64,000 bases of DNA. Source: Nitrospirota bacterium. Its GTDB lineage: Bacteria > Nitrospirota > Thermodesulfovibrionia > Thermodesulfovibrionales > SM23-35. The stretch spans positions 1 through 64,000 of the forward strand of contig JBFMCL010000009.1 of NCBI GenBank assembly GCA_040754395.1. The letters are read 5' to 3'. Below are positions 3,228 through 20,808 of the stretch, piece after piece (position 1 is the stretch's first letter; every line of letters starts with the position of its first letter). The notes beneath the pieces are model-generated. The model did not search any database. It saw nothing but the letters and a program-made list of their open reading frames with translations, and was not told where the DNA came from. The translations under genes and the position numbers were made by a program.

Positions 3228-4298
3228 ATGCTGATACAAAAAAGTGGCATTAAATATGCAAATGCTATGAAATATAGACCTATGCAGAAAAAGATATTTT
3301 TAGTTATGGGTATCATTGTGCTGTGCATGGCGATGTTCACGTATGCGCCAGAGAGGGGTGAAGCGGTAGTAGGCGGGGATTGCGATGCATGCCATTCCCT
3401 GTATCCCGGGATGATGGAAAAAACCATGCGAGGAAAGCCATTTCAGTTTGTGCTCAGAGATATCTTCTGCATCAACTGCCATTCTCATAACACCAGCGAG
3501 ACTATTAAGCTGCTCGGTGGCAACAGGGTGCCTGTAGTTTTCAACAACGTGAAGCCGGTACACCCCCTTGCCGGAGGGAATTTCTACCCTGTCGCAAGGG
3601 ATTTTGGTGACAGGAAGGGACATAATGTAAAAAGCATTGCCTCAGTTGATGCGAAATTCAGGAATGTGCCTCCCGGGTACAGCAGGAAACTTGATCCCTC
3701 CCTCACAGGGTATGACATGGGGCAGCAGCTTTCCTGTGCGGGCACGAACGGTTGTCACGGGGACAGAAATATTGAAGACCCTTTTGAGGCTGTGTTCGGT
3801 GCCCACCATGCTGTGGGGTTGCCAATCGACGGAAGCACAACCGCGAAGAGTTACCGTTACTTGAGGAATGCCGGAAAAGTGAAGGGTGTCACGGGATATG
3901 AGGACAATGAATGGAACAGGCATGCTACAGCGGATAAGCATAATGAATATACTCCGTCGATTGATGAATTCTGTACCAGCTGTCACGGCGAGTTTCATAC
4001 AGGAAAACTATCCTCCGTGAAAAGCCCGTGGTTCAGGCACCCTACAGGAATTGTCCTGCCTTCAAATGGTGAATATGCCAATTACCGGACATACAATCCG
4101 GATGCGCCGGTTGCAAGGCCTGTGCTTCCTCAGTCTCCCAGTAATGTGGTTACCCCGGGAAAAGATGCAGTCAGTTGTCTGTCCTGCCACCTTGCCCATG
4201 CAGGACCTTACGAATCCCTGCTGAGATGGGATTATGACAATATCTTTACCGGGGAAGACGAAAAAGGCGGTTGCATTGTATGTCATACGGGAAAATAA
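3228..4298 (+). CDS. Secreted multiheme cytochrome c, CX5CH family (paralog 1)
   Basis: Five CxxCH motifs (residues 52, 81, 249, 317, 349) and one CX5CH motif, CAGTNGCH at 170-177 (bases 3735-3758). The N-terminus is a signal peptide; Met19 at base 3282 would give the most compact one, and no start has a clear ribosome-binding site. Between motifs it shares a family signature with the three other CX5CH proteins here: LAGGNF, KGHNV, SYR[YF]L, HNEY, GEYA.Y and VTPG.D.V.CLSCH.AH, ending in CHTGK. The His of KGHNV could be a distal heme ligand. Expected location is periplasm or cell surface. It opens the locus and precedes paralog 2 by 77 bases. The heme count is read directly from sequence; an electron-transfer role is inferred. 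Confidence 0.88.
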   Translation: MLIQKSGIKYANAMKYRPMQKKIFLVMGIIVLCMAMFTYAPERGEAVVGGDCDACHSLYPGMMEKTMRGKPFQFVLRDIFCINCHSHNTSETIKLLGGNRVPVVFNNVKPVHPLAGGNFYPVARDFGDRKGHNVKSIASVDAKFRNVPPGYSRKLDPSLTGYDMGQQLSCAGTNGCHGDRNIEDPFEAVFGAHHAVGLPIDGSTTAKSYRYLRNAGKVKGVTGYEDNEWNRHATADKHNEYTPSIDEFCTSCHGEFHTGKLSSVKSPWFRHPTGIVLPSNGEYANYRTYNPDAPVARPVLPQSPSNVVTPGKDAVSCLSCHLAHAGPYESLLRWDYDNIFTGEDEKGGCIVCHTGK

Positions 4299-4375
4299 AT
4301 ATGCGAAGAGTATGGAGTGAAAAGCATAGAGCACAGCACAAATTCCCAAAAGTACAGCAGAACAGGGAGGATGCA

Positions 4376-5485
4376 ATGAGAAGAGGGATGAATTTCGGAT
4401 TATTTGTGGTATTTTCTCTCTTTTCCATGTTGTTTGGCCTTTGTGTTTTTACAGTAACTGCTGATGCGAGGGTAAAGGGAAAATGCAAGGATTGCCACAC
4501 GATGCACTACAGTTATGAGGGGGAGGGAAGGGCGTACGGGAGCCAGACAGGCCCTTTTCCGATTCTTTCGAAAGGCGGATGTATCGGCTGTCATGCACAG
4601 GATCCAAATGGTGTCAAAAGTATCGTAACGGCAGGAAAAGCGCGGATCCCCCAGGTTCTTCATCATAATGAAAACGATGATCTCGCGGGAGGGAATTTCT
4701 ATTATGTGGCGGATGGGTTTAATCCTGACTATGCAAAAGGGCATAATGTGCGGGGAATCTCACGCCAGGAAAATCCGCCCATGGATATTCCCCCCGCCTT
4801 TGTCGGCAATATTGTTATTGCCGGAGGAACAGGTCCAGCACGCTGGCCGGGACGCCAGCAACTGACCTGTGCAGGTACATGGGGATGTCATGGCAACAGG
4901 ACAGAAGAAGATCCTTACCAGTCCGTTTACGGGGCACATCATGCCGATGATTCGGATATTGACGGTGCAACAGTAGGAACAAGCTACCGTTTTCTTTATG
5001 GAGTGAAAGGGAAGGAACACAATGAATGGGAGTATCAGGCTGCAATAACGGACCATAACGGCTACAAGGGCAGTGTTGACCATGATACCACGGATACCAT
5101 CAGTTACCTGTGCGGGCAGTGTCACGCCGGATTTCACCCGCATCCTAATCTCGGCGGCAGCAGGGAAGTAGGCCATTCATACAATGCGGCTTGGAAAAGA
5201 CATCCTGCCGACATCGCGTTCAACACTGTACATGGCGGTTATGCAAATTCCGAGTACAGTGGATATCTCTTGTACAGCCTGGAGGCTCCTGTAGCCTATG
5301 ATAAGCCTACAGGCAGTGAGGCTGTTGTTGATGCCGGCAGCATTCTCATGTGCCTTTCATGCCACAGATCCCACGCGAGCAAATACCCTGACCTTCTGAG
5401 ATGGGATTATGAAACCATGAAAGCGGAAAAAGGGAAAGGCGGGCAGGGTTGTTTAACGTGTCATACCGGTAAGGCAGGGCATTGA
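4376..5485 (+). CDS. Secreted multiheme cytochrome c, CX5CH family (paralog 2)
   Basis: 369 residues from the ATG at 4376, chosen because GGGAGG lies 8 bases upstream and the signal peptide (MRRGMNFGLFVVFSLF...ADA) begins there; the frame stays open further upstream. Motifs: CKDCH, CIGCH, CAGTWGCH (the CX5CH element, bases 4868-4891), CGQCH, CLSCH and CLTCH, ending CHTGKAGH. It is collinear with its neighbours: LAGGNFYYV, AKGHNV, SYRFL, a shortened HNGY and LLRWDY before the last motif. Secreted or periplasmic electron carrier by inference. A MITE-like repeat begins 8 bases after its stop codon. Confidence 0.88.
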   Translation: MRRGMNFGLFVVFSLFSMLFGLCVFTVTADARVKGKCKDCHTMHYSYEGEGRAYGSQTGPFPILSKGGCIGCHAQDPNGVKSIVTAGKARIPQVLHHNENDDLAGGNFYYVADGFNPDYAKGHNVRGISRQENPPMDIPPAFVGNIVIAGGTGPARWPGRQQLTCAGTWGCHGNRTEEDPYQSVYGAHHADDSDIDGATVGTSYRFLYGVKGKEHNEWEYQAAITDHNGYKGSVDHDTTDTISYLCGQCHAGFHPHPNLGGSREVGHSYNAAWKRHPADIAFNTVHGGYANSEYSGYLLYSLEAPVAYDKPTGSEAVVDAGSILMCLSCHRSHASKYPDLLRWDYETMKAEKGKGGQGCLTCHTGKAGH

Positions 5486-5492
5486 CTATCAG

Positions 5493-5631
5493 CCCAAATC
5501 CAGCGATAGGGATTGTCATTGCGAGTGTAACGAAGCAATCTTGCCTGCGCATAGGAGATTGCCGCGCACCCTTTAGGTGCTCGCAATGACACGCATGTTA
5601 AACTCTTAAGAAACTTATCGCTGGATCTGGG
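5493..5631. repeat. MITE-like palindromic repeat, copy 1
   Basis: 139 bp bounded by 16-base terminal inverted repeats, CCCAAATCCAGCGATA and TATCGCTGGATCTGGG, with one mismatch. An inner pair TCATTGCGAG / CTCGCAATGA makes the whole element foldable. Related copies lie at about 35779-35903 and 55214-55355. It encodes nothing. Repeats with the TCATTGCGAG core are, to my knowledge, common in deltaproteobacterial and Nitrospirota-like genomes. Confidence 0.85.
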
Positions 5632-5732
5632 TTGAAGGCGTTTCCCCGTTGTGTGAATGTGTATCTGTCTCATCTGTAATCAACCCCCGGAAGTCTGCAG
5701 CATCCTCTCAAAAAAGCAAAAGATAAAAAAAC

Positions 5733-5783: not shown

Positions 5784-5995
5784 CACGATTCAGCGATTAT
5801 TTTTTTCTTAAGGGTAAAATTGGCATGAAGCTTGCTCTAATATTATTGTAATGTCATTTTTTCCAAGATTCACAGAGAATATGTGGGAGAATGTCATACA
5901 TAGAATTTAGCAAATAATAATTATCAATAGATAAAATAATAATCATATAGACATGAAAAGCGCTGTGATCCTGAAAAGAAAGGAGGTGAATGAGA

Positions 5996-7117
5996 ATGCG
6001 AATGAAATCTGCAGTATGCTTCATAATGCTTCTCAGTCTGTTGCTCATATCCGGCAATGTGTATGCCATCACAGGAGTCTGTTCGAACTGCCATACCATG
6101 CACAACAGCCAGAACGGCACAAGAATGGCAGACAGGGATGCGCCCTATGAGTATCTGCTGAGGGCAAGCTGTATCGGATGTCATACCGGCTCGACAGGAC
6201 AGGTCAACAGCTACGGTGCGCCGGTTGTCTACCATACCACTGATCCGGCTGGTCAGGGTGCAGGCAAGACACTGGCTGGCGGTGATTTCTACTGGGTTGC
6301 CAGCGGTACTGCCGGCCGTGACGATGCGAAAGGCCACAATGTATACGGGATTGCCAGTGCTGATGTGGCTCTCGGGATGACGCCGCCCGGCTGGCATCCG
6401 GCTGCAACTCCCGGTGCGCTGAATGACGGACAGATCAATGCAGGGGGAGCTGCATGGTCAACACAGCTCAACTGCGCAGGACAGTTTGGATGTCATGGCA
6501 ATCACAGCAGTGCATCCAATGACGGTGGAATTTTCGGCTCACACCACGGAAACACAGGCGGAACTGCGACACAGGCAAACGCTCCAACGTCGGTAGGAGG
6601 CAGTTACCGGTTCCTTGGCGGCATCAACGGACTTGAGGAAGCCGGATGGAACTGGGCTGAAACGGCCAGTACCCACAATGAATATTTCGGCGTGAATGAT
6701 ACGGCAAACAGAAACCAGACCTACACCGCGTATAACAACAAGCGAACCATAAGCTATTCATGTGCACAATGCCACGGGTACTTCCACAGCAGGATTGACG
6801 ACACCGCAACCGGCTCCCCATGGCTAAGACACCCGACTGATGTTGATCTTCCGGCTTCCGGCGAATATGCAACGTACAACCCTGACAATTCCAATCTCTA
6901 CAGTGTTGAAGCGCCTGTCGGACGTGCCACGGTGCCCGCATCCAGCAGCAGCACGGTTACTCCGGGAACGGATATCGTTACCTGCATCTCGTGCCACAGG
7001 GCTCACGGCTCTTCAGAACCAGACATTCTGAGATGGACGTATGCAAATATTCAGGCCGGGACAGGGACTGCTGATACGGGATGTTTTACCTGTCATACAC
7101 AGAAAAATGCCGATTAA
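5996..7117 (+). CDS. Secreted multiheme cytochrome c, CX5CH family (paralog 3)
   Basis: 373 residues from the ATG at 5996, which sits 9 bases after GGAGG in AAAGGAGGTGA, a near-perfect ribosome-binding site; an ATG at 5990 is too close to it. The signal peptide ends near VYA. Motifs: CSNCHTMH, CIGCH, CAGQFGCH (CX5CH, bases 6473-6496), CAQCH, CISCH and CFTCH. It keeps the family signature LAGGDFYWV, AKGHNV, SYRFL, HNEYFG and GEYATYN. It has its own promoter and a strong terminator, so it is a one-gene transcript. With that ribosome-binding site it is probably the most highly made of the family, which would suit a structural subunit. Confidence 0.9.
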   Translation: MRMKSAVCFIMLLSLLLISGNVYAITGVCSNCHTMHNSQNGTRMADRDAPYEYLLRASCIGCHTGSTGQVNSYGAPVVYHTTDPAGQGAGKTLAGGDFYWVASGTAGRDDAKGHNVYGIASADVALGMTPPGWHPAATPGALNDGQINAGGAAWSTQLNCAGQFGCHGNHSSASNDGGIFGSHHGNTGGTATQANAPTSVGGSYRFLGGINGLEEAGWNWAETASTHNEYFGVNDTANRNQTYTAYNNKRTISYSCAQCHGYFHSRIDDTATGSPWLRHPTDVDLPASGEYATYNPDNSNLYSVEAPVGRATVPASSSSTVTPGTDIVTCISCHRAHGSSEPDILRWTYANIQAGTGTADTGCFTCHTQKNAD

Positions 7118-7130
7118 AAGGCAACACGAA

Positions 7131-7166: not shown

Positions 7167-7194
7167 ATGAACAGTAAGAAGACGGATCAGAGAA

Positions 7195-8175
7195 ATGGAA
7201 AAGGGAACAAGAGAATATCAGAGTGAAACAATATCTGTGGAAATAACAAAGGGAATTCTCTGTCTGATCACCATATTGTTACTCCTGATGCCCGGAGCAC
7301 TCATGGCGCAGACAGGTCCGGATTCTGTTACCTACATCGACAGCATACGCGAGGATGAGGAAGGAGGAAAGCTTTACTTTCCTTCATGTATCTTTGCAGA
7401 GCCGGAAAGAAATGAGATCTACATAATTGATGCCAAATCGAGAATCATTATCTATACTTCAGATTTGTTTCCTGTGTATACATTGTCCAAATGTCACGGA
7501 ATCGAGACACCCCAGGGGCTGACGGTGGATTCCGAAGGAAATCTTTATGTTGCGCAGAGCGCGTCGAAAGACAACCCGAGACACAGGATATCGGTGTATA
7601 ACGCGCGCCTGAAATGGGTGCGCGATATCTATATAGAAGGCTTCGAGAACGCTGAATTATTCATACCCTACCGTCTTGCGGTCGACAAAAAAGGGAATAT
7701 TTATGCGTCAGCAGCATATTATCCGGGCATTGTCATCCTGAGTAACCATGGACAGCTTCTGGAAGTTCTCACTGCAGAGGAGGACGACAGGAAAATAAAG
7801 TTGAGCAATGTCACGGTGGATGAAAACGGCAGAATCTATCTGGTCAGTGAAGAAGAAGGGCATATATACGTCTATGATGAAAAAAGAAAGTTTCTTTTTA
7901 AATTCGGGGTGAAAGGAGGCAGCAGCGGGAAATTGAGCAGGCCTCTTGCGGTTGCGGTTGATAACCAGAGGGGAAGGATGTACGTTGTAGACTACATGCG
8001 GCATACGGTGTCAGTCTACGACTATGAGGGCAGGACCCTCTTTGAATTCGGTGGTCTGGGGTGGGGAGAAGGGTGGTTCCAGCATCCGAAGGATATCGCT
8101 GTCGATACCGAGGGAAGGATCCTGGTAGCTGATACGTTTAACGACCGGATAGAGGTGTTTCAGGCGAATGAATAG
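7195..8175 (+). CDS. Secreted NHL-repeat six-bladed beta-propeller
   Basis: 326 residues with a signal peptide or anchor (hydrophobic residues ~21-38). Then come about six NHL-type blades, marked by strand motifs such as EIYIID, NLYVAQ, NIYASA, RIYLVS, RMYVVD and RILVAD, with DEAG-like turns between them. NHL propellers bind proteins or sugars and have no catalytic site here. It overlaps the next propeller gene by 8 bases, so the two are co-translated. In a cytochrome locus, a propeller scaffold that docks or positions cytochromes is a reasonable inference, not shown. Confidence 0.82.
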   Translation: MEKGTREYQSETISVEITKGILCLITILLLLMPGALMAQTGPDSVTYIDSIREDEEGGKLYFPSCIFAEPERNEIYIIDAKSRIIIYTSDLFPVYTLSKCHGIETPQGLTVDSEGNLYVAQSASKDNPRHRISVYNARLKWVRDIYIEGFENAELFIPYRLAVDKKGNIYASAAYYPGIVILSNHGQLLEVLTAEEDDRKIKLSNVTVDENGRIYLVSEEEGHIYVYDEKRKFLFKFGVKGGSSGKLSRPLAVAVDNQRGRMYVVDYMRHTVSVYDYEGRTLFEFGGLGWGEGWFQHPKDIAVDTEGRILVADTFNDRIEVFQANE

Positions 8176-9745
8176 ACTCGCTTATCTGAAAAGAAATGTG
8201 CTGTATGCTCTCCTCTGCGTGATTTTCAGTATGCTTATCGGGTGCGCGTCCGTCCGGGAGCACGCGGTATTTTCAGATGCAACGGAAGGACAGATCACCA
8301 TTTTCCTCAAGGTCCCCGAAATAACCGCAACAGATATCACCTTTGATCTTTCGGCTGTCAGTATTTTGTCTGATGACGGGACATACAGGGAGATCATGAA
8401 TATCCCTGTCTCAGTGAACTCTGTCGCAGTAACAGGCTCACAGATCAGGATATGTGAAAAAGCTCTGCAGGAAGGCAGATACCGCAAGCTTACGCTGCGT
8501 GTGACTCAGGCTTTCATACAGAGGAAAGATACCTCAGCACATCTGGCGCTGCCGCCGGAAGGCATAGAGATTGACATTGATGCTGCGGTAAGGCGGGGCC
8601 AGAATACCTCCCTGTTTTTGCACTGGAACGCTGACGGATCTGTTGTCGACGGATATCTGTTTCGTCCCTTGTTGACGGTTCGGGGCCAGACTCCCGAACT
8701 GAGTTCTCTTCTGATATATGTAACGAATGAGTACTCCAACAACATTTCTGTTCTCAACAGACAGACGGGTGAGACAGTAGCCACCATTATGGTCGGAAAA
8801 AACCCAAGGGGTATTGCAGCAAGCCCCGGCAGGGAGCGTCAGAGGATCTATGTGGCGAATACCGGATCAAACAGTGTTTCGGTCATAGATCCAACCACAA
8901 ACAAGGTCGAGACAGAAATCCCCGTGCGTTTTGGAAGACAACCGGAGGCGATCGCGGTTGTTGCCATATCTCCGGAAAGGGAACTCCTCTTCGTATCCAA
9001 TTTCGGCTCAAACAATGTATCGGTCATTGATGCGGCACTGTATCAGGAGATTGAAAGGATCAGCGTAGGGGAAGGCCCTGTGGCATTGTCGGCAGATCCC
9101 GCTGCTGAGAACCTTTCTGCCTCGAGATTCCTGGGTGGGGGTGAAGTTGCCTTGTTGAGAAGATACAGGGAAAAGTTTTTCAATGTCTATGTCGCAAACA
9201 AGAATTCCAGGAGTGTATCGGTAATCAGAATGGACATATCAAGGGGCAAAGCCGATGCAGTGATGCACGCGAACGTTGAATGGAACCCGGTTGCGCTCTC
9301 AGTCGACTATCCAAGGGGAAAAGTCTACGTAGCGAACTATAACCATGAAAACCTTTCGGTACTGGATATCCCACAGTTTGTGAGTGGTAATCATGCAGGC
9401 GCGGTCAGTTCCATTTCCAATATAGGAACTTCAGTGACAAGCATTATTGCAGACACTGAGATTGACAGACTGTATCTCCTGAAGGAAAGCACCGGAGAGA
9501 TCATGATTATCAGGCCGTTTTCAGAGGCATTCGGTAACCGGTTGACCACGATGTCCCCTGTGATTGGAACGATCCCGGTAGGGAGTCTGCCGAGGTCAAT
9601 GCTTCTTGATCCGGAAGGAAGGAAGATATATGTCGTCAACAGAGGATCGGATGATGTTTCTGTTGTCGATAAGACAACAAGGCGGGTTGAACAGGTTATT
9701 CCGGTCGGCAAGAGACCTTTCGGCATAGCCATGTTCCCATATTAG
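8168..9745 (+). CDS. YVTN seven-bladed beta-propeller lipoprotein
   Basis: 525 residues. The N-terminus ends in a lipobox (MLIGC, Cys27), so it should be a lipoprotein. Residues ~35-180 form a beta-rich domain resembling DUF4382-type extracellular domains (ITIFLKVPE, then ATDITFDLSAVSIL). From ~185 come seven 40-residue YVTN repeats: YVTNEYSNNISVL, YVANTGSNSVSVI, FVSNFGSNNVSVI, YVANKNSRSVSVI, YVANYNHENLSVL, a divergent sixth, and YVVNRGSDDVSVV. These form a closed surface propeller. The start overlaps the NHL gene, and the barrel gene follows 39 bases later, so the three are probably one operon. Confidence 0.85.
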   Translation: MNRLAYLKRNVLYALLCVIFSMLIGCASVREHAVFSDATEGQITIFLKVPEITATDITFDLSAVSILSDDGTYREIMNIPVSVNSVAVTGSQIRICEKALQEGRYRKLTLRVTQAFIQRKDTSAHLALPPEGIEIDIDAAVRRGQNTSLFLHWNADGSVVDGYLFRPLLTVRGQTPELSSLLIYVTNEYSNNISVLNRQTGETVATIMVGKNPRGIAASPGRERQRIYVANTGSNSVSVIDPTTNKVETEIPVRFGRQPEAIAVVAISPERELLFVSNFGSNNVSVIDAALYQEIERISVGEGPVALSADPAAENLSASRFLGGGEVALLRRYREKFFNVYVANKNSRSVSVIRMDISRGKADAVMHANVEWNPVALSVDYPRGKVYVANYNHENLSVLDIPQFVSGNHAGAVSSISNIGTSVTSIIADTEIDRLYLLKESTGEIMIIRPFSEAFGNRLTTMSPVIGTIPVGSLPRSMLLDPEGRKIYVVNRGSDDVSVVDKTTRRVEQVIPVGKRPFGIAMFPY

Positions 9746-9784: not shown

Positions 9785-12118
9785 ATGAGTAAAGGTCGGG
9801 GAGCGAAAGTGCTGAAACTCTTCGGTCTCTGCGCAATTTTGCATGCTTTTCTGTTTTCTTTTGCTTTTGCAGAAGGTCCGAATGCACTAATGAACATGAA
9901 CTATACAGAAACAACACAGTATGAAAACGGAGACAGAACACAGACGTCTGATAACCTGTATCAGAACTACTATTTCCGTTTTGATAAAGCCGTCACCCCG
10001 GTAATTTCCTATCAGCTCTACCTGAGGTCGACGTTAACGAATGCGCATACCAAAGATGCGGATGGTGACGTGACAAAATCGTACCTGAGAGCCCTGGAGC
10101 CGGCAGCGGACATCTTTTTCAGAACCCCTCTCTACGGGCTGGATGCGGGGTACCGGCGTCTTGATCAGTGGAACACTGCAAACCTTAACAACAATGGCAG
10201 GATAACGACGGATTTCTCCTATTCACGCTTTACTCTCACTCCCTACGAACTTCCTGCGTTTTCCCTGCAATTTGACGGGGAAAAGGAATACGATCACCTC
10301 AAGGTGAGGAAAACCGACACAGCGTATACAAAATATTCCGGAAGTTCATGGTATGACCTTGTCTACAAAGACATCAGGATGTCGTATAACATCAATTACA
10401 CACGGGATGAACACAAGACCCCGCTCGAGAAGGTAACCAAAACAATCAATAACAGTGTCAACGGGCTCTTTACCCTCGGGTACAGCAGGACCTTCTGGAG
10501 CAATAAGGCAAGTGTCTCGGCAGGATATCAGAGCAGTTATGTGCGGTACAAAAATGAACAGTTTGCTGCCGAGACAGGCAGCGTATCATTCAAGAGGACA
10601 CCGTCTCTTGGCATGTACGGCTCAGGAGTCCAGCTTCAACCCGATGTTGATACCCTTGCTTCAACGATTTCCCTGAGTGACAATATCCATACTGTACCGG
10701 CTGCTTCGACTTCAGGGGTGATCAATATCGGTCAGAACGGAAAAAGATATCACAATATCGGGGTGCAGCTGTTTTCATCGGAAAAACCTGTTGATACCAT
10801 CTGCGTGTATGTGAATAAGGATATTACAGGGGAGACAAACCTCACAGATGGTGCGAAATGGCGGGTGTATCGCAGCAGCTTTAACCTTCCTGGAACCTGG
10901 GCGGAGATTGCCATTCAGAGTGTTACCGTATCAGCATATGATTCGCTGCACAATATATACCGGTATGAGATACGGCTGATTTCTCCGCAGAACAGCCTCT
11001 ATTTCAGGGCGGTCAATATGGAGAATGCCTCGGTTATTGATCTGCTGGTAACAGAGATCGAGGTGTTCGGTACTGATGAGATACCGCAGTCGGGAAAGAC
11101 CACTGATGTAACCACATTTTTTACCCAGGGGATTAATTTCAATGCAAGTCTGAGACCCGTACAGAGGCTTACCTTTTCTCTGAATTACTTCCTGAACAGG
11201 TCGGATCAGAATCCGGCGTCAATAGCGAAGTCGATCGGCGGTGCCTTTGCAAATCTCCTCAGCGACTCCATTAAGGACAACGGGAAGAAGCTCAAAAGCA
11301 ATATCACGAGGGCCTACGGTTTGAACTCAGTATGGTTTGCCCACAGACTCCTGACTACTACTGTACGCTTCCTGAGAAATGAGGCATTCGATAATAACAG
11401 GGAGATGGATTTGCGGTCTGATACCTATTCTGTTTCGTTCAGTTCAGCACCCCTGCCGACACTCGATACAAACCTGTCGTATGTACGTACATATACCTAT
11501 AATTTCACCGAGAAGCAATCAATGAACAATTTGTATCTTTTGACCATTGGTGCAAGAATCTACCGTGATGTCAACATGATCACCGATGTCGGATACACGC
11601 AGTCGAAAACATATGCAGGGAGTATTCGGGAAAATATTGAAACTGCTTTCAGGGATACCTCCTCTTCAACGCGCTATATCAGGGGCACCCTCGATACACG
11701 CTTTACCCCGAATCTTTCAGGAAACCTTACCTACGGATTAAGCCGCACGTCAGGAAGCACCTCTTCACAATCGAATGATGCTTCCCTGATTGTCACTTAC
11801 CGGCCAGGCAGATTCATCAGCCTTTCGGGGAGCTTCAGAATTGCTGATACAGACGATGAAACCCGGATGTCAGAAGGCATTCTGCTCGACTGGCTCATTG
11901 TGCCGTCTGTCAGATTCAATCTCAGTTATGAGCACATCAATACAGAAAACGAGACAGAAGCAGAGACGGAAACGACGGACACCATCAGCGGGTATGTCAT
12001 CTGGTATATCACACGATTCCTGGATTTGCAGGTCAACTACAGTTACATACATAATGATCAGGAAACGAAACGGAAGACGTATAACCTCGTGGCAAACTTC
12101 ACAGGAAGATTCTGGTAG
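9785..12118 (+). CDS. Large outer-membrane beta-barrel (candidate conduit porin)
   Basis: 777 residues with a signal peptide ending near AFAEG. The sequence is full of alternating polar/aromatic strands and ends in GRFW, the C-terminal aromatic recognised by the BAM machinery. There are enough strands for a barrel of more than 20 strands. Residues ~280-430 are different: a soluble, discoidin-like beta domain (NIGQNGKRYHNIGVQLFS...) inserted between strand groups. No CxxC or CxxCH is present, unlike MtrB with its N-terminal cysteines. Placed between propellers and cytochromes, it is the natural candidate for the sheath of a porin-cytochrome conduit, but no direct MtrB or OmbB likeness is visible by eye. 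An alternative is a secretion channel for the cytochromes. Confidence 0.8.
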   Translation: MSKGRGAKVLKLFGLCAILHAFLFSFAFAEGPNALMNMNYTETTQYENGDRTQTSDNLYQNYYFRFDKAVTPVISYQLYLRSTLTNAHTKDADGDVTKSYLRALEPAADIFFRTPLYGLDAGYRRLDQWNTANLNNNGRITTDFSYSRFTLTPYELPAFSLQFDGEKEYDHLKVRKTDTAYTKYSGSSWYDLVYKDIRMSYNINYTRDEHKTPLEKVTKTINNSVNGLFTLGYSRTFWSNKASVSAGYQSSYVRYKNEQFAAETGSVSFKRTPSLGMYGSGVQLQPDVDTLASTISLSDNIHTVPAASTSGVINIGQNGKRYHNIGVQLFSSEKPVDTICVYVNKDITGETNLTDGAKWRVYRSSFNLPGTWAEIAIQSVTVSAYDSLHNIYRYEIRLISPQNSLYFRAVNMENASVIDLLVTEIEVFGTDEIPQSGKTTDVTTFFTQGINFNASLRPVQRLTFSLNYFLNRSDQNPASIAKSIGGAFANLLSDSIKDNGKKLKSNITRAYGLNSVWFAHRLLTTTVRFLRNEAFDNNREMDLRSDTYSVSFSSAPLPTLDTNLSYVRTYTYNFTEKQSMNNLYLLTIGARIYRDVNMITDVGYTQSKTYAGSIRENIETAFRDTSSSTRYIRGTLDTRFTPNLSGNLTYGLSRTSGSTSSQSNDASLIVTYRPGRFISLSGSFRIADTDDETRMSEGILLDWLIVPSVRFNLSYEHINTENETEAETETTDTISGYVIWYITRFLDLQVNYSYIHNDQETKRKTYNLVANFTGRFW

Positions 12119-12163: not shown

Positions 12164-12844
12164 ATGGTACAGCAAATACTCATGACGAAAGAAGAGTTTT
12201 TGTCAGCTGAGGGCCAGCAGCCGAAAGCCGCGGGCAAGGGGCGCAGACCAAACGGAAAAGACCGGGGACACGGTGCTCTGGTATCCGGAGGGTTATTCTC
12301 TGTGCTCCTTGTCCTCTGTGCTTCCGTTTTTTTTGCTTACAGCTGCGGCCCGAAATATTTTACCAGGGGAAATACCAATCCTGATGACCTCAAGAAGATC
12401 GCAGTATTCCCTCTGGAGAATTTTACGATCGATGAAAATGCCGACAATAGAGTCAGGATCATACTGATTTCAGAACTCCTTTCGAGGGGTGTTGATGTGG
12501 TGGAGCCTGGAGAAGTGACAAGGACATTCAGGGAAATGAAGGTCAGGTCTGCCGATGCCGTAAAAGTTGCGGAATTGCAGGAAATCGGAAGAGCGCTGAA
12601 GGCGGATGCGCTTATGCTGGGTTCTGTGGAATTTTTCGGAATATCACGGGGAGTCTCGGTTTCCTATCCGGAGGTTACCATCAACCTGAGACTTATTGGT
12701 ACGTCAACGGGAGACATTCTCTGGTCAGTCCGGAATACCTCGGGCGGAGCCGGGTTCTGGACCAGACATTTCGGCTCGGAGACAGTTTCTCTGAGCGAAA
12801 CTGCAGAGCGTGTGGTAAAAGATGCGCTTGACACACTGTTTTAG
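12164..12844 (+). CDS. CsgG/LpoB-like lipoprotein 1
   Basis: 226 residues. A ~35-residue charged N-terminal tail precedes a hydrophobic segment ending in a lipobox-like AYSC, so it may be a lipoprotein despite the long tail; Met7 at 12182 is another possible start. The domain begins with KIAVFPLENFTIDE, the [IV]AV[FL]P[FL].N.T signature of CsgG/FlgO/LpoB-type periplasmic domains, then runs through ISELLSRGVDVVEPGEV to the Gly-rich IIWSV-like stretch. These proteins help build outer-membrane export or envelope structures. It is the first of three related genes in a row after the barrel. Confidence 0.75.
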   Translation: MVQQILMTKEEFLSAEGQQPKAAGKGRRPNGKDRGHGALVSGGLFSVLLVLCASVFFAYSCGPKYFTRGNTNPDDLKKIAVFPLENFTIDENADNRVRIILISELLSRGVDVVEPGEVTRTFREMKVRSADAVKVAELQEIGRALKADALMLGSVEFFGISRGVSVSYPEVTINLRLIGTSTGDILWSVRNTSGGAGFWTRHFGSETVSLSETAERVVKDALDTLF

Positions 12845-12894
12845 ACCAGGAAGATGAATATCAAATATTTATTTAGTTACAAGAGGTGGAAGAG

Positions 12895-13476
12895 ATGAAA
12901 CTGTCACGAATACCCTTTTCTCTGTTGTTTATTGTCCTGTTCTCGGTTTCCATCAGTTGCGGCGGAAGGGGTGCTTCTTCATTCTATATCAGCCAGGATA
13001 CGGATTTCAGTTATGTCAAACGGGTAGCAGTGCTCCCTCTGGATAATCATACGAACGAGAGGTTTGCAGGTGATTCCGTTCGCCAGGTCGTCATCAGCGA
13101 ACTGCTGGCTTCAGGACTGGTGGATGTTGTCTGTCCCGGAGATGTATCTTCCGTATTCGATGCCCTGAAGCTGAGAACGGGACAGTCTCCAAATGCAGAG
13201 CAGATGAAGGCTATCGGAAAGTCCCTTAATGTTCAGGGAGTAATATTCGGCGCTGTCAACAAATACGGTGAAATCAGGGATGGAAATGTATCTGCTCCGG
13301 AAGTTGCATTGACCCTCATGATGTCTGATGCCAGTTCCGGGAGCATCATTTGGTCTGTGACAAAATCAGGCGGAGGAGCGAGCTTTGCATCGAAGCATTT
13401 CGGTGCAAGAGCCGATACCATGAGCGAGACCGTGCTGAAGGTAGTCAGAGAAGCAATCGGCACTTTGCATAAATAA
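12895..13476 (+). CDS. CsgG/LpoB-like lipoprotein 2
   Basis: 193 residues from the ATG at 12895, preferred over a GTG at 12886 because AGAGGTGG then serves as ribosome-binding site. The lipobox is SISCGG. The mature part carries VAVLPLDNHTNE and a long stretch parallel to the preceding protein (VVISELLASGLVDVVCPGDV; SIIWSVTKSGGGASFASKHFG versus ILWSVRNTSGGAGFWTRHFG). The two are clear tandem paralogs. The shared GG-G-[AG]-F-x5-HFG ending is a useful signature. Probably an outer-membrane-facing lipoprotein; function inferred from family only. Confidence 0.78.
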   Translation: MKLSRIPFSLLFIVLFSVSISCGGRGASSFYISQDTDFSYVKRVAVLPLDNHTNERFAGDSVRQVVISELLASGLVDVVCPGDVSSVFDALKLRTGQSPNAEQMKAIGKSLNVQGVIFGAVNKYGEIRDGNVSAPEVALTLMMSDASSGSIIWSVTKSGGGASFASKHFGARADTMSETVLKVVREAIGTLHK

Positions 13477-13481: not shown

Positions 13482-14567
13482 ATGAAAAAACACGCAATGA
13501 ATACAGGAAAAAGAACAGAGAGTGAAGTGCAATTCCTGAGGAAAACAATGCTCCTGTTGCCATGCATCATGTTCTTTACACTCTGTTCATTTGGTTCTGC
13601 AAGCCCGGTGTATGCTGACCGGACAGGTCTCAGGGAGAGAATCGCCCTGTTCCCTTTTGAGAACCTGACAGAAGACAGGAATGCCCTGCAGATCGTCATG
13701 CCGGTCATAAGGGAGAAGCTTGAATCTCTGGGGTATGAGATACTGGATGATGACAGTCTGGACAAATTTTTGCTGAAAGAAAGGGTCAGATGCACAGGCT
13801 ACATATCAAGGGATACCGCACGTAAACTGCGCGATGAACTCCGGATAAACGCAGTCCTTGTCGGTGCCGTCAACACATTTTCGAACCGGGAGAACCCGAT
13901 GGCCGGTTTCTCTGCAAGGCTTGTGGATTTGTCAAGCGGCGCCATCCTCTGGGCTGACCACGCTGCTGCCACTGGTGAGGATTTTGCCACGGTTCTCGGA
14001 CTCGGCAGGATATCAGATATAGGAACACTAAGCGCAGCAGTTATTGATAAAATGCTCAGGGCATTCAGTACGGTGCAGCCGCTGAAGGAAAAAGAAGCAA
14101 CTTACAGGGTGGCAGTAATGCCATTTCAGAACAAGAGTAGGGTCAAGGATGCCGGAATGATCATCACTTATATGTTCATTGTTGAGTTGTTCAGGCATAC
14201 GCAATTTGAACCAATAGAATTCGGTGACGTCAGATGCCTGCTGATGAATCTCCGGGTCAGGGAAAAGGGAGAGCTTGATTTCAGAACGACCGACGCCATA
14301 TCAGAATCTTCAGGGGTTGACGGAGTCATTCTGGGCACGGTGGACATGTATGCTGAGGGGGAAGGAAGCACACCTCCTGAGGTTTCCATATGCGCACGAC
14401 TGCTTGATGCCCGCAGAGAAAAGATGCTGTGGTGCGACAGCAGCCAGGCAAGAGGCGATGATTCCATTTCGGTGTTCGGCTTGGGAAGGCTGAGAGCGGC
14501 AGAAAATGTGGCGTATAAAGTTGTATCGGAACTTGTACACGGCATGAGTGGGGCAAAATGGCAATAG
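13482..14567 (+). CDS. Secreted protein with two CsgG/LpoB-like domains
   Basis: 361 residues. A signal peptide ends near VYADR. Two copies of the same fold follow: domain 1 starts at IALFPFENLTED (~52-63) and domain 2 at VAVMPFQNKSRVKDAG (~208-223); each contains a glycine-rich segment near its end (FATVLGLGRI, ISVFGLGRL). So this gene is an internal duplication of the unit seen once in each of the two upstream genes, giving four such domains in 2.4 kb. Its stop overlaps the start of the isomerase gene by 10 bases, implying translational coupling with a folding factor. Confidence 0.75.
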   Translation: MKKHAMNTGKRTESEVQFLRKTMLLLPCIMFFTLCSFGSASPVYADRTGLRERIALFPFENLTEDRNALQIVMPVIREKLESLGYEILDDDSLDKFLLKERVRCTGYISRDTARKLRDELRINAVLVGAVNTFSNRENPMAGFSARLVDLSSGAILWADHAAATGEDFATVLGLGRISDIGTLSAAVIDKMLRAFSTVQPLKEKEATYRVAVMPFQNKSRVKDAGMIITYMFIVELFRHTQFEPIEFGDVRCLLMNLRVREKGELDFRTTDAISESSGVDGVILGTVDMYAEGEGSTPPEVSICARLLDARREKMLWCDSSQARGDDSISVFGLGRLRAAENVAYKVVSELVHGMSGAKWQ

Positions 14568-16273
14568 ACAGACAGAAAAGAGCAATGAGCACGAAAGTCA
14601 GGTACAGAAAACAGAAATCTGACGTGCACATCATGAATCAGACATCCATGAAGACTGGTATGTACTGTTTTGGCGTTATCCTTGTTATGTTCTGCTGGAT
14701 GATGGTTTTCAGCGGCTGTGCTTTATCCACCAAGCATGAGTTGGTGCTTGCTGTTGTTGACGGTGAACGTGTAACGGAAGGGGATCTCAAATACTCTCTG
14801 AACATTGCACACCGGAGAGAAGACCTTTCATCTGCAGGACTTCTGGATCTGGAAGAATTCATACAGAGACTGATCGACGACAGGTTGATCGTCCACGAAG
14901 CACGCAACGCCGGCGTGGACAGATATCCTGAGGTACGACAGGCTGTTGACGCATTTTTTCTGAGGGAGTCGGTCGTGAGGCTTCATAACCAGGAGATTGT
15001 GCAGAAGGTTACGGTATCAGAGCAAGAAATCATGGAGCATTTCAGAACTAATTATGAGAGGTTTACCCTTGAATTGATGGAACTGAAGTCGCGTGAGGAG
15101 GCGCAGGGAATTCTGGAGAAAATCCGGACAGGAGAAAATTTCAGAGATCTTGCCAGGGACCATTCTCCTCATTCCATGAAGGATGGTGATGCAGAATACA
15201 CTGTCACGAGGAATACTGTTTCAGGAGATATTGAAAACGCTCTCGTTTCCCTGAACCCCGGAGAAATCAGTGAGATTGTCAAAGTAAACGAGAGGTACTA
15301 CATCATACATTTACTCGGGAAAAGCAGTGCGCCTGCCGAGCAGTACCAGGATTTCAGGGGCAGGATTGAGCGGGAACTCAGGAAGCAGAAAGAAAAATTC
15401 CGCAGTGAGGAGTACCTGAAGGAACTCCGTGCAAAATCTGCGGTAAGGATTGACCGGGAAATTCTGTCCTCCATTGAATCAGAAAAAACAGGGGAAGAGA
15501 CCGGGATACGTGCAGATGATGCGAGGACTGTGGCCGAGGTGAATGGTGCAGTTCTGACTGTTGCAGATTTGGTCAGGATGAACCCGCCGTCTTCCGATAA
15601 GTCCAGTGAGGATATCGTCAACGCGTGGATTGACCGCAAAGTCGTTGATCAGGAAGCACTCAGACGTCATTATAAGGCCGATGCCGGCTTACAGGCTGTA
15701 ACTATCCGGTATGAGAACGAGATTCTCAAAAACACCTATATCAGGAAAATGATAGTTCCCCAGATAACCGTTCGTGAGGCAGACCTTCAGCAGTACTATG
15801 CAGCGCATCAGCAGGATTTCGCAAAACCGGTGCGTTACCGGCTGCTGCAGATTACGGTGAAGTCAAGGGAGGATGCTCAGGAAATCGCGAAAAGCATTGC
15901 GGAGGGGGCAGATTTTTCCTGGCTCGCAAAGAGAAAGTCAATTGATTCGGCAGCATCGCGGGGAGGCGATGCCGGATGGATTGCCGGGAAAGATTTACCA
16001 CGGCCCGTTGCAGAAGTGATAAAAACAATGGGCACCGGAGAAACAAGCCCGATAATTCCGTTAGATTCATCATACGGGATATTCAGGATACAGGAAATGA
16101 CAGAAAAAGAAACTGAAGCATATGCGCATATTAAGGACACGGTATCCAAAGCATATATAAAAGAGCAGATAAGAAACATTCAGGATAAGTACCTCAGGCA
16201 GTTGAGGGCGGCAGCAGAAATACGAGTGCATGAAGAAAACATCACGAAGCTGAAAGAAAAACTGAAGCAGTAA
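14558..16273 (+). CDS. Peptidyl-prolyl isomerase lipoprotein with two parvulin domains
   Basis: 571 residues. After a basic N-terminal tail, a hydrophobic stretch ends in a lipobox, VFSGC. Met31 at 14648 would give a normal-length signal, but the ATG at 14558 overlaps the upstream gene and has a GTGGGG box. Next is a SurA-like N-domain (VVDGERVTEGDLKYSL), then parvulin domain 1 (~165-260), a second SurA-type helical segment (VNGAVLTVADLVRM) and parvulin domain 2 (~415-515, with SIDSAASRGGDAGWI). The layout is a duplicated PpiC unit. It acts in the periplasm on folding client proteins; proline-containing cytochromes and the barrel encoded next door are the obvious clients. Confidence 0.85.
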   Translation: MAIDRQKRAMSTKVRYRKQKSDVHIMNQTSMKTGMYCFGVILVMFCWMMVFSGCALSTKHELVLAVVDGERVTEGDLKYSLNIAHRREDLSSAGLLDLEEFIQRLIDDRLIVHEARNAGVDRYPEVRQAVDAFFLRESVVRLHNQEIVQKVTVSEQEIMEHFRTNYERFTLELMELKSREEAQGILEKIRTGENFRDLARDHSPHSMKDGDAEYTVTRNTVSGDIENALVSLNPGEISEIVKVNERYYIIHLLGKSSAPAEQYQDFRGRIERELRKQKEKFRSEEYLKELRAKSAVRIDREILSSIESEKTGEETGIRADDARTVAEVNGAVLTVADLVRMNPPSSDKSSEDIVNAWIDRKVVDQEALRRHYKADAGLQAVTIRYENEILKNTYIRKMIVPQITVREADLQQYYAAHQQDFAKPVRYRLLQITVKSREDAQEIAKSIAEGADFSWLAKRKSIDSAASRGGDAGWIAGKDLPRPVAEVIKTMGTGETSPIIPLDSSYGIFRIQEMTEKETEAYAHIKDTVSKAYIKEQIRNIQDKYLRQLRAAAEIRVHEENITKLKEKLKQ

Positions 16274-16342
16274 GATATCACTGCGTGATCTGCTGCAAAA
16301 ACGAAAAATACGTTTGAATACACGCATGAAATGAGTGGATTT

Positions 16343-18295
16343 ATGAAAATGAAAAAAATTGTCAAAATGTTTCTGGTGTTGTGTATCCTGGGTGTTTTCT
16401 TCACGTGCGCACCGGACCAGACTGTCAGAAGGGGCTTTCAGGCCAAACCATGCCTTGATTGTCATAAACTTCAAATGAGTGCCTTTGGGAAGAAGCATGT
16501 CCATTCTCCTATGGCAAAGCATGACTGTGAGGCGTGTCATCTCCGTCACGGGAAAATAGCGGTGTTGAGCCTTAAGGAAAGGGAAGAGAAAAAACTCTGT
16601 TACCTCTGCCATACGCAGATGTCCCTTGAAATGGATAAGACGGCTCATGTCCATTCAGCGGTGAACCAGGGGAAATGCCTTCCCTGCCATAATCCCCATT
16701 CATCGGATACCAAGTCCCTCCTGAAAAAAACAGGTAATGAGCAGTGCCTCCAGTGCCATGATCAGACACCATTTATGCGTCCCCAGCGGCATAAACCATT
16801 ATCTGACGGATGCCTGACCTGTCATACCGCGCACGGGTCGAAGTATAAAAATAATCTTGTCAAAGATGTGACCGAACTATGCAATACCTGCCACTCTTAT
16901 ACAGAAGAAAAATTCAGGAAGGCTCACCGGGATTATCCTGTTCAAAAAGGAAGATGCACCGGTTGCCATACCCCCCACAGTTCATCAAATGCGGGATTGC
17001 TCAGGGAGTCAGTTCATTCGCCAATGAAGCTTGGGAAATGCTCATCATGCCACAAACCTTCCAGCGACGTTTCTCCTCTCAGAGTCGTTGCTTCGGACGG
17101 GCAACTCTGCTACACATGCCATCAGAAAGAGGAGAAAGGATTCAGAGAGCCGTTCAGGCATCAGCCGGTTGAGGAAGGAAAATGCATGCAATGCCATAGT
17201 CCGCACGCAGCGAATTTTCCAAAGGTATCGCTGCGGGATAAAAACAGCCTCTGCATCAATTGCCACACACAGAAGGCTGATATTCTTAAAAAGAGCAGCC
17301 TGCACCCGCCTATCAGGGATAAAGGCTGTACCGCCTGCCATAACCCTCACGCGTCTCAGAATCGGCTGTATCTTAAGGTGGCGGAGAAGAAACTCTGCCT
17401 AACCTGTCATGTGAAGACAGAAAAGGAACTCCTGGAAAAATATGCGCATATGCCATTTTCAAAAAACGAATGCGGGAAGTGTCATGATTCGCACGGCAGC
17501 AATAATCCCCGAATGATGAAGACACCTGTCTCAGTGTTATGTTACACCTGTCATAAAAAGCAGGAGAAGGATTTCTTTCAGACATATGTCCATACGCCGG
17601 TGAACAACAAAAAGTGCACCTCGTGCCACAAAGCCCATGCCTCTTCCTATACGAGATTGCTGAACAATACACCTGATCAGCTCTGCATGAACTGCCACGG
17701 CAATATGCACCTTGCACTCAAGGAAGAGGTAACGCACAAACCGTTCAGGGAAAAGACCTGCGGCGTCTGTCACAATCCTCATGCGAGCGAGTATGTTGCC
17801 AACACCAGGTCATCCATGCCCGGTCTGTGTTATGGGTGCCACAAGAAAATGGATATCGAGGCAAAAGTGAAAAACAACCAGCACCTCCCGTTTGAAGAGG
17901 GCAAATGCTCGGGATGTCACAGTCCTCACGGAACCAAAATATCGGGTCTTCTTCTCAACAGGCCAAAGGAGCTTTGCCTTTCATGCCACGAGAGAATTGT
18001 CACAACCACTGCAAGAAAGGGCCATATAGGGATGGAAAAGGGAGACTGCCTGAGCTGCCACACCTCTCATGTCGGAGATGCAAAATATCTTTTGAATAGC
18101 AAAGACCCGGATTTATGCGTGAAATGCCACGCGTCAGATTCAGAGAAGATGCTGAAGGCACATGCAAGACCTGTATCCGGAATCAAGCGTTGCCTGAGCT
18201 GCCATCAGCCACATGTGAGCGAAAAGCCGGGCATGATAAGGAAAGTGAAACATGATCCTTTTTCCAAAGGGGAATGCAGGGCGTGTCATGAATAA
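16343..18295 (+). CDS. 26-heme cytochrome c with paired CxxCH repeats
   Basis: About 650 residues with 26 CxxCH motifs, one per ~24 residues to the very end (CRACHE). Motifs alternate: one followed by [NST]PH[AS]S or similar, the next by a Lys-rich spacer, the Paired_CXXCH pattern. Conserved His in the spacers (H.P.....C) supply second heme ligands. The signal segment ends at FFTC, a possible but non-canonical lipobox. I start at Met 16343; an ATG at 16331 is also open. The linear repeat implies a wire-like protein, long enough to cross or extend from the outer membrane. It overlaps the next cytochrome gene by 8 bases. Confidence 0.92.
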   Translation: MKMKKIVKMFLVLCILGVFFTCAPDQTVRRGFQAKPCLDCHKLQMSAFGKKHVHSPMAKHDCEACHLRHGKIAVLSLKEREEKKLCYLCHTQMSLEMDKTAHVHSAVNQGKCLPCHNPHSSDTKSLLKKTGNEQCLQCHDQTPFMRPQRHKPLSDGCLTCHTAHGSKYKNNLVKDVTELCNTCHSYTEEKFRKAHRDYPVQKGRCTGCHTPHSSSNAGLLRESVHSPMKLGKCSSCHKPSSDVSPLRVVASDGQLCYTCHQKEEKGFREPFRHQPVEEGKCMQCHSPHAANFPKVSLRDKNSLCINCHTQKADILKKSSLHPPIRDKGCTACHNPHASQNRLYLKVAEKKLCLTCHVKTEKELLEKYAHMPFSKNECGKCHDSHGSNNPRMMKTPVSVLCYTCHKKQEKDFFQTYVHTPVNNKKCTSCHKAHASSYTRLLNNTPDQLCMNCHGNMHLALKEEVTHKPFREKTCGVCHNPHASEYVANTRSSMPGLCYGCHKKMDIEAKVKNNQHLPFEEGKCSGCHSPHGTKISGLLLNRPKELCLSCHERIVTTTARKGHIGMEKGDCLSCHTSHVGDAKYLLNSKDPDLCVKCHASDSEKMLKAHARPVSGIKRCLSCHQPHVSEKPGMIRKVKHDPFSKGECRACHE

Positions 18296-19595
18296 GCAAA
18301 CAACAAAGCGCCGGGAGCAAAGAATCGGGAAAAAAGATCCGGGACAGGGGAATCCCGCGAACATAATCGCGATATGTGTTTTTCTGACGGCCGTTTTCCT
18401 GAGCGGGAACGTGTTTGCCCAGGGAAAACCCGGAGAAAAAGTTCCTGATGTATGCTACAAGTGTCATGTGAAACTCAGGGAAAGACTGTCCGGCAGTCAG
18501 GTGCATTTCCCTTTCAGGGACGGCAGATGTCTCTCATGCCATAATGCGCATGCAGGCAACATGAAAGGACTTGTAAGAGAGGATATCAATACGCTCTGTT
18601 TGGGCTGTCATGATGCGGTCAGAAGAAATCTTGACCAGGGATATGTACATCGCGCGTTAAAGAAGGGGGTGTGCACGGATTGCCATCATGCACACAGCGG
18701 TGAATACACACATCTCCTGGTAAAAACGCAGAAGGACCTCTGCTGGAACTGTCACTCCTCTATACAGGATCAGGCAAAAAAGAAATTTGCCCACAAGCCT
18801 TTCAGAGAGGGGGAATGCTCGTCCTGTCATAATGCACATGCATCGTCCCAGGAAAACCTTATGCGGGACACCGCACAAAAACTGTGCAGAAAGTGCCACT
18901 CAGCCGGTTGCAGGGTGGGGGGTGTTTCAATAGCTTCTGCTGTTGCCCAATCAGACTGCACGTCATGCCACAGCGGGCACGCATCAGATTCCGGCGGCCA
19001 TCTCGGACCATATGGACATAGCGCCTTCCTCGGAAAACAATGCAACACGTGTCATGATCCGATCGTTTCAGACAGAAAAATCACTACCAGGATATCCGGA
19101 TCCGCGTTATGCCTCAGCTGTCATAAAAAGGATACCCTGAGAGTCAGGGAGAATGACGCGCATATCCGGGATGAAAAGGGAGGTTGTGTGCTCTGCCACA
19201 ATTACCACGCATCAAAGAGGCAGAACCTGACTGTAAAGGAATCGCAGATCTGCATGACGTGTCACAAGGAAACCGGGAAGAGGACAGAAATGATGGAAAA
19301 GGCATTGCGATCAATCAAATGTGTTCCGGTTAAGGACAGGAAATGCTTTGAATGTCATAATCCCCCGCATTCTTCTCATGAGCTCTACCTGCGGGCAGAA
19401 AGTATTCAGACATGTGCCAGGTGCCACATACAGCAGCACAAAGTTACCCATCCGCTCGGACAGGATGTGAAAGACCCGCGGAATGGTCAGCCGGTTTCCT
19501 GTATTACCTGTCACAGCATGCATTCGTCGAAGGCCGAGTTTATGCTTTACTTTGACAGGAAGAGACAACTCTGTATCCAGTGCCACAAGAGGTAG
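18288..19595 (+). CDS. 16-heme cytochrome c with paired CxxCH repeats
   Basis: 435 residues from the ATG at 18288, which overlaps the end of the 26-heme gene; that start gives a sensible basic n-region and signal peptide (NPANIIAICVFLTAVFLSGNVFAQ). Sixteen CxxCH motifs follow, beginning CYKCH and ending CIQCHKR, with the same alternating paired pattern and H.[PA]F spacers as the upstream protein. One spacer holds two extra cysteines (AGCRVGG after the seventh motif and IKCVPV before the thirteenth) that could form a disulfide. The two genes are evidently made together and may stack into one heme chain. Confidence 0.92.
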   Translation: MNKQTTKRREQRIGKKDPGQGNPANIIAICVFLTAVFLSGNVFAQGKPGEKVPDVCYKCHVKLRERLSGSQVHFPFRDGRCLSCHNAHAGNMKGLVREDINTLCLGCHDAVRRNLDQGYVHRALKKGVCTDCHHAHSGEYTHLLVKTQKDLCWNCHSSIQDQAKKKFAHKPFREGECSSCHNAHASSQENLMRDTAQKLCRKCHSAGCRVGGVSIASAVAQSDCTSCHSGHASDSGGHLGPYGHSAFLGKQCNTCHDPIVSDRKITTRISGSALCLSCHKKDTLRVRENDAHIRDEKGGCVLCHNYHASKRQNLTVKESQICMTCHKETGKRTEMMEKALRSIKCVPVKDRKCFECHNPPHSSHELYLRAESIQTCARCHIQQHKVTHPLGQDVKDPRNGQPVSCITCHSMHSSKAEFMLYFDRKRQLCIQCHKR

Positions 19596-19707
19596 TCGCA
19601 AGCTGAAGGATGAAAGCATGGATAAGGGAGTCACGGGCAGAAAGCTGCTAGCGGAGGGAAAGACGCATACACGCTTTTTCTTCCCGGAAAAGACAGGAGG
19701 AATGCTC

Positions 19708-20808
19708 ATGCATGTTCTGTGTAATCTGCTCGTGTATGCATGCATTCTGCTGCATAGTGTTCCTTCTGACGCAAAGATAACAGGAAACTGCAGCGACTGT
19801 CATACCATGCATAACAGTCAGAACGGAACTGCCATGGCTACATACGGTGCAGACGGCAAGCCATGGAAAGGATCAGGCCCTTTCAAGTTCCTGGTCCGGG
19901 GTGACTGTCTCGGATGCCATGGAATGGGCAGAACCAGCAAAATTGAGACGATGGGAGGTAATGCCATTCCCCAGGTGTATCATACAGACAACACCGGAGA
20001 CCTTGCGGGAGGGAATTTTGCATATATTCTTGGTGCAAAGGGTACCGGAGCCTCAGACAGAAAAGGACACAATGTGATTGACATCGGCAAAATCGACGAT
20101 ATCCTCACTGATGCACCGGGAAGATATCATGATCCCATGGCGAGGAATACCGAACTTACCTGTGCAGGGAATAATGGCTGCCATGGCTGGCGGGAATTCA
20201 ACAACAGCGGGAGCGGACTGGGGAGCCTGAAAGGCGCCCATCATCAGAATGTGGAAGGGAAGTGTGATGTTGCCGACAAGAATCAGAACAGCTACCGCTT
20301 CCTCAGGGGGGTAAAAGGACTTGAAAACACGGGTTCGTACAAATGGCAGAATTACAACAGCGAGCATCACAACGAGTACTACGGCACGTCAACGCCAATG
20401 GGAAGCACATGTACTGACTGCCACGCTGCTCCAAACATGTATTTGCGGCCGAGCAACAGCTCGATCAGCGGCTTCTGTGCGACATGTCACGGAAACTACC
20501 ATGTCTTAACGGGGATAGGCGGGGATACCTCTTCACCATTTACCCGCCATCCGACTGATGTCCTGTTGCCTGCAAGCGGAGAGTATGCAGGATATACCAC
20601 TTACAGCACAATCGCCCCGGTAGGAAGGAGGACAGTGCCCGATTCCATGAGCAGCTCGGTAACGCCGGGGAACGATGTAGTTACCTGTCTCTCCTGTCAC
20701 GCTGCCCATGCAACTGATTATGCGCATCTTCTGAAATGGGACTACAGAAACTGGCCGGGAAACGGCCTGCCGAACGGATGCAACGCATGTCATACGGGAA
20801 AGAATTAG
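19708..20808 (+). CDS. Secreted multiheme cytochrome c, CX5CH family (paralog 4)
   Basis: Start at 19708 is chosen because AGGAGG lies 7 bases upstream and a compact signal peptide (MHVLCNLLVYACILLH...SDA) begins there; ATGs at 19618 and 19702 are alternatives. Six CxxCH motifs (CSDCHTMH, CLGCH, CTDCH, CATCH, CLSCH, CNACH) and one CX5CH, CAGNNGCH at bases 20161-20184. It has one heme motif more than the other three family members (CTDCHAAP). Family signature present: LAGGNF, RKGHNV, SYRFL, HHNEYYG, GEYAGY, VTPGNDVVTCLSCHAAH and CHTGKN. It is separated from paralogs 1-3 by 12.6 kb of partner genes. Confidence 0.88.
   Translation: MHVLCNLLVYACILLHSVPSDAKITGNCSDCHTMHNSQNGTAMATYGADGKPWKGSGPFKFLVRGDCLGCHGMGRTSKIETMGGNAIPQVYHTDNTGDLAGGNFAYILGAKGTGASDRKGHNVIDIGKIDDILTDAPGRYHDPMARNTELTCAGNNGCHGWREFNNSGSGLGSLKGAHHQNVEGKCDVADKNQNSYRFLRGVKGLENTGSYKWQNYNSEHHNEYYGTSTPMGSTCTDCHAAPNMYLRPSNSSISGFCATCHGNYHVLTGIGGDTSSPFTRHPTDVLLPASGEYAGYTTYSTIAPVGRRTVPDSMSSSVTPGNDVVTCLSCHAAHATDYAHLLKWDYRNWPGNGLPNGCNACHTGKN

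Follow-up and report, generated by a model that had tools for sequence, protein, structure and literature searches.

A CX5CH motif at the probable heme 3 site marks a clade of OmcS-superfamily cytochromes in an oet-type operon

OmcS, a hexaheme protein of Geobacter, forms nanowires with a continuous heme stack; of its six distal His ligands, the one that completes heme 505 comes from the neighbouring subunit (PMC6584659). In its homolog DA_402, a 2025 Nature paper described seven CXnCH motifs (n = 2-5), six of them aligned with OmcS (PMC12545173), and in the solved structure of another cytochrome, OmcZ, heme 1 is bound by a Cys pair with a 14-residue loop (CX14CH; PMC9473688). An operon in syntrophic sulfate reducers has been proposed to work with OmcS-like filaments via the OetABI conduit (PMC5539420, PMC10553843). 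Here, we analysed the first 64,000 nucleotides of contig JBFMCL010000009.1 from a Nitrospirota bacterium (hereafter the window), in which four paralogous secreted cytochromes each combine standard CxxCH heme motifs with one CX5CH. We estimate a probability of about 0.85 that these proteins are extracellular cytochromes of the OmcS superfamily, encoded in an oet-type operon, and that their CX5CH attaches heme 3.

All four genes lie on the forward strand. Paralogs 1 (3228-4298), 2 (4376-5485) and 3 (5996-7117) carry five CxxCH and one CX5CH each, and paralog 4 (19708-20808) six CxxCH and one CX5CH, hence seven candidate heme sites. The in-frame CX5CH blocks reported by the first-pass annotation were all found and are each followed by Gly: CAGTNGCH in paralog 1 (3735-3758), CAGTWGCH in paralog 2 (4868-4891), CAGQFGCH in paralog 3 (6473-6496; Cys160, Cys166 and His167, modelled as a beta-hairpin) and CAGNNGCH in paralog 4 (20161-20184). 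A script count of 5, 5, 5 and 6 CxxCH agreed with its claim that the remaining heme motifs are standard; the same kind of count was negative for CX3-7CH in six further multiheme cytochromes. The mean column identity in a full-length alignment of the four proteins is 53%, and most of the sequence blocks that they were said to share are indeed common, except that paralog 1 reads SYRYL for SYRFL, and that paralog 2 reads HNGY for HNEY and lacks VTPGxD. At the DNA level, the CX5CH pattern occurs 15 times in the window versus 5.2 expected, and 0 of 100 shuffles reached 15. The real argument against a chance origin of the motif is nevertheless its conservation across many genomes, which rules out both chance and a single local duplication as its source.

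What family these cytochromes belong to was not apparent from Pfam and NCBIfam scans, in which the paralogs gave only generic multiheme matches above cut-off. By contrast, a profile built from the four proteins and run against the PDB matched OmcS (6ef8/6nef) over nearly the whole length with an E-value of 2e-11, the next chain being at 0.016. Paralog 3 was modelled with AlphaFold2 from a 91-row alignment (mean predicted local distance difference test score 83, predicted template modelling score 0.83), and Foldseek returned OmcS 6ef8 as the sole PDB match of this model (probability 1.00, E-value 1.8e-5), with 22% identity in the fold alignment. In paralogs 1-3, the six motifs pair in order with the six CxxCH of OmcS, the CX5CH falling on the CSSCH of heme 3; the order of heme sites is thus that of OmcS, provided that CX5CH counts as site 3. 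Because site 3 is a CX5CH, the paralogs do not have the six CxxCH of OmcS itself, and we therefore file them as a variant clade of the superfamily and not as OmcS. We conclude, from alignments and the model, that the four paralogs belong, as diverged representatives, to the OmcS nanowire superfamily. The cytochrome family recognized by the first-pass annotation is real; the homology to OmcS had been overlooked.

The closest relatives, retrieved by a contig scan with motif-containing baits (79 loci), are mostly Nitrospirota metagenome-assembled genomes (MAGs), which makes a host from this phylum probable. The genome (2.98 Mb) encodes one further paralog, the fifth, on a different contig (G000:C2:115129-116208); its identity to paralog 4 is 73%. 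Since the baited set is biased towards CX5CH, conservation was re-examined on genomes searched with whole-protein profiles, 198 from the window's phylum and 247 from that of Thermodesulfatator. The pooled set comprises 230 non-identical sequences, including OmcS and its clade, the non-baited ones coming from whole-protein profile searches, mainly of these two groups of genomes. All 230 homologs have C-Xn-CH at site 3, with a spacer of five residues in 171, two in 35, three in 15 and four in 9; loss of either Cys or of the His was seen in none of them, and the profile-searched members scoring above 150 bits likewise retain the motif. Among the CX5CH sequences, 171/171 have both Cys and the His, the Gly at +2 and +5 of the first Cys are nearly invariant, and the two positions between these Gly vary freely. 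The five standard sites keep C..CH in 226 to 230 of the 230 homologs. In a clade nested within or sister to the CX5CH proteins, and often encoded by an adjoining gene in the same cluster, site 3 reads CATNSCH, CTNSCH or CATCH, motifs that look like a shortening series, and an extra CxxCH precedes HH. On a tree from which the site columns had been left out, at least 8 changes are needed to account for the four spacer lengths (shuffled mean 27), and 2 for CX5CH versus all other spacers.

Cys-Cys-His is thus kept while the spacer changes repeatedly, at a position proven to carry heme in OmcS, which argues for a heme site throughout. On this comparison of sequences, site 3 is almost certainly a heme site whose spacer length drifted in evolution. 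The proposal of a real noncanonical heme site is strongly supported by the invariance of its three residues, which the first-pass annotation had left to a family search, and by relatives with CX2-4CH at the same place; the spacer, for its part, is not fixed, ranging over n = 2-5 across the homologs. The further idea that the longer loop shapes a special heme finds no support: spacers of 2-4 occur at this site in relatives from the same clusters, so that the loop length looks tolerated and clade-specific and not needed for special heme chemistry. From the first Cys to HG, CxxCHDPHG of OmcS and CxxxxxCHG of the family are equal in length. CX5CH may accordingly owe its origin to no insertion, the second Cys having moved from +3 to +6 and the His at +7 having become the proximal ligand; MAFFT renders site 3 as a Cys shift or as an insertion, depending on the sequences included.

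Candidate distal ligands can be followed in the same way. In the OmcS clade, the non-motif His16, His110, His147, His257 and His335 are conserved in 11/11 sequences and His247 in 8/11, six positions in all, which is the number of its distal ligands. His16 is presumably the inter-subunit His that ligates heme 505 of the next molecule. Five of the six positions are kept in the CX5CH family; the sixth, in CxxCHDPHG, is replaced, and three new His (in HH and HNEY) are each conserved at 97% or more. Together, the five kept and three new His would be enough for six hemes, and nearly all Cys of the mature proteins fall within heme motifs. In the mechanism that we infer, for heme occupancy, polymerisation and direction of electron flow alike, paralogs 1-3 would be hexaheme and paralog 4 probably heptaheme proteins of extracellular electron transfer. 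CX5CH would attach heme 3 covalently through both of its Cys, with the His next to the second one as proximal ligand, as happens at CxxCH; the spacer of five residues would lengthen the loop that joins the thioether Cys, a length tolerated at this position and fixed in a single radiation of the superfamily. The stacked hemes would conduct the electrons, and the His three residues past the first CxxCH of paralogs 2-4 is predicted to ligate heme 5 of the next subunit.

Several points weigh against this reading. The template modelling score of the paralog 3 model to OmcS is just 0.39, so that the equivalence of the folds is partial. Support for the deep branches of the tree is weak, so that the spacer may have changed in either direction, and of the two motifs in the CX2-4 clade, the one matched to CX5CH was picked by its spacing to PG and HH. 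In the modelled beta-hairpin (158-161, 165-168), Cys160 and Cys166 sit on facing strands and could in principle hold a cross-strand disulfide.

The first of these points would also fit proteins that bind heme at site 3 but act as monomeric electron carriers at the cell surface instead of nanowire subunits. The same holds for the absence of the inter-subunit His from some members: in paralog 1 and the 15 homologs nearest to it (for example L007, L009 and L014), the equivalent of His16 is replaced by Tyr, Phe or Val (CHxLYPGM and variants; in paralog 1 CHSLY, with the Tyr59 codon at 3402-3404 on the forward strand). However, this His is kept at the OmcS position in paralogs 2-4 and almost all other full-length homologs, and the OmcS-like DA_402 of Desulfurivibrio alkaliphilus is predicted to polymerise (PMC12545173). 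We therefore consider monomeric carriers unlikely, and the substitution raises another possibility, that paralog 1 could be a filament cap, at the end, or an adaptor subunit.

A second alternative is that CX5CH requires its own heme lyase, as does the CX15CH of MccA with CcsA1 in Wolinella, a precedent for dedicated lyases (PMC6976685). The candidate is a ResB/CcsA pair (System II cytochrome c synthase; Pfam) located directly behind the cytochrome cluster on the forward strand (22489-24904). The window holds two diverged ResB/CcsA pairs, this one and another at 41268-43805; the presence of a second, diverged pair adjoining the cytochromes, with the two ResB only 21% identical, would suit such a role. 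Yet among the fetched neighbourhoods, many of which end before its expected place, a ResB1/CcsA1-like pair was seen in L063 only, and 11 other CX5CH genomes have no ResB more than 28% identical to ResB1, several having one ResB or none found. The genome G164 gave no ResB match at all, so that its cells must rely on System I or on a gene that escaped the search. Neither the neighbourhood nor the genome searches support a dedicated ResB/CcsA, the co-occurrence expected of an MccA-type lyase being absent, and we regard it as very improbable. Likewise very improbable is that the CX5CH Cys pair forms a structural disulfide without heme, leaving five hemes in paralogs 1-3: its Cys, which the model puts on facing strands of a hairpin, are the sole non-CxxCH Cys of these mature proteins, but the His after the second Cys is conserved in 171/171, 59 relatives have CxxCH, CX3CH or CX4CH at this site, the absence of heme 3 would interrupt the continuous OmcS-type stack, and the three extra conserved His would be left without an evident role.

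Heme attachment at site 3 is thus retained as our explanation, and spacer variation is not confined to this site. In paralog-4-type proteins, HNEY is followed, ahead of the fourth OmcS-type site, by a seventh motif, which in paralog 4 reads CTDCH (20410-20424, forward strand). Its equivalent in 47 members has spacers of 2 to 7 residues (n = 2 in 17, 3 in 5, 4 in 9, 5 in 1, 6 in 10 and 7 in 5), as in CSTTSCH, CSTGNTSCH and CGGAGELSCH, with Cys and CH kept up to CX6CH and CX7CH; besides paralog 4, this observation covers L015, L033, L041, L048, L081 and others. Paralog 4 is probably heptaheme. The seventh motif of DA_402 reportedly has no paired His and was omitted from its authors' model (PMC12545173); should it correspond to that of the paralog-4-type proteins, heme occupancy there is less assured than at site 3. 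As a separate observation, L034 and L084 have CGCH, a one-residue spacer, at the fourth OmcS-type site (SDSGCGCHGDLH, SDAGCGCHGDFH). Combining these features, we tentatively propose that site 3 (2-5) and the extra site (2-7) are elastic while the other five are locked as CX2CH, so that loop length would be free at some positions, that the paralogs build a mixed polymer with paralog 1 as its end or membrane-adaptor subunit, and that CX5CH may come from the Cys shift without insertion; as a whole, this combination is a possibility with the odds against it.

The genes between paralogs 3 and 4, all on the forward strand, place the family in an operon of the oet type. They encode an NHL beta-propeller protein (7195-8175) and a lactonase/YNCE-type beta-propeller protein (8168-9745), both identified by Pfam; a putative outer-membrane beta-barrel of 777 amino acids (9785-12118), which has no Pfam family, is conserved in the cluster and is a candidate OetI-like porin; three GNA1162/CsgG-like proteins (12164-12844, 12886-13476 and 13482-14567), with Pfam matches for the first and third, the two that were scanned; a PpiC-type peptidyl-prolyl isomerase (14558-16273; Pfam); and two cytochromes with, by motif count, 26 CxxCH (16331-18295) and 16 CxxCH (18252-19595), fitting the 26-heme and 16-heme operon proteins of PMC5539420. 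The defining genes of the oet / SEEP-SRB1 operon are thus present, namely the 16- and 26-heme cytochromes, the NHL propeller (six-bladed in the definition) and the PpiC isomerase, and homologs of many of the operon genes recur near the CX5CH family in other genomes. Elsewhere in the window, a second multiheme cluster (27645-33258) encodes a further PpiC-like isomerase and cytochromes whose CxxCH number 8, 12 and 7; its 413-amino-acid cytochrome resembles the C-terminal part of a 534-amino-acid cytochrome at 20875. In a Methanosarcinales MAG, a 3.3 kb contig (L046) carries a 703-amino-acid frame with a CX5CH OmcS-like part and more CxxCH (12 in total); this contig may be misbinned bacterial DNA.

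The CX2-5CH motifs of DA_402 and the CX14CH heme of OmcZ weaken the novelty of a long spacer as such. In an exact-term search of open-licence papers, none names CX5CH and one has CX2-5CH, an earlier description elsewhere being possible; within that literature we found no description of the fixed CX5CH clade, its spacer statistics, the second elastic site or the paralog 1 substitution, and the lack of a conserved dedicated CcsBA for CX5CH is also new here. If only CxxCH are counted, annotation would miss one or two hemes in each protein of this family, which would show up as apparent gaps in modelled wires. The natural spacer series, 2, 3, 4 and 5 at one site and 2-7 at another, offers a test of how much loop the synthase and the heme geometry tolerate, and paralog 1 makes it testable how cytochrome nanowires are started or terminated and how they connect to the outer-membrane conduit.

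Among described systems, the MccA/SirA sulfite reductase resembles the paralogs in having a noncanonical heme-bearing spacer, CX15CH, beside standard CxxCH (PMC6976685), but it is an enzyme of another protein family with a dedicated lyase. OmcZ is, like OmcS, a nanowire cytochrome and its elongated spacer demonstrably bears heme (PMC9473688); its fold is unrelated and its far longer loop is located at the subunit interface. DA_402, OmcS-like with seven CX2-5CH and a predicted polymer, is probably a paralog-4-type member, although its gene was not found via the published primer among the genomes searched, and the text of the paper singles out neither a CX5CH nor its conservation (PMC12545173). 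The oetABI / SEEP-SRB1 operon (PMC10553843, PMC5539420) shares the beta-propeller, the 16- and 26-heme cytochromes, the isomerase, a porin candidate and OmcS-like genes with the locus described here, which differs in its Nitrospirota-like genome, its four CX5CH paralogs and its GNA1162/CsgG-like genes. Finally, OmcS of G. sulfurreducens shares with the paralogs the His of GHN, RHP and CHxxH, secretion, six heme sites in the same order and an N-terminal CHTMH with the inter-subunit His (found in the family, Tyr in paralog 1), and differs at heme 3, where its CSSCHDPH (CX2CH) stands in place of the CX5CH and the added HH and HNEY His of the paralogs.

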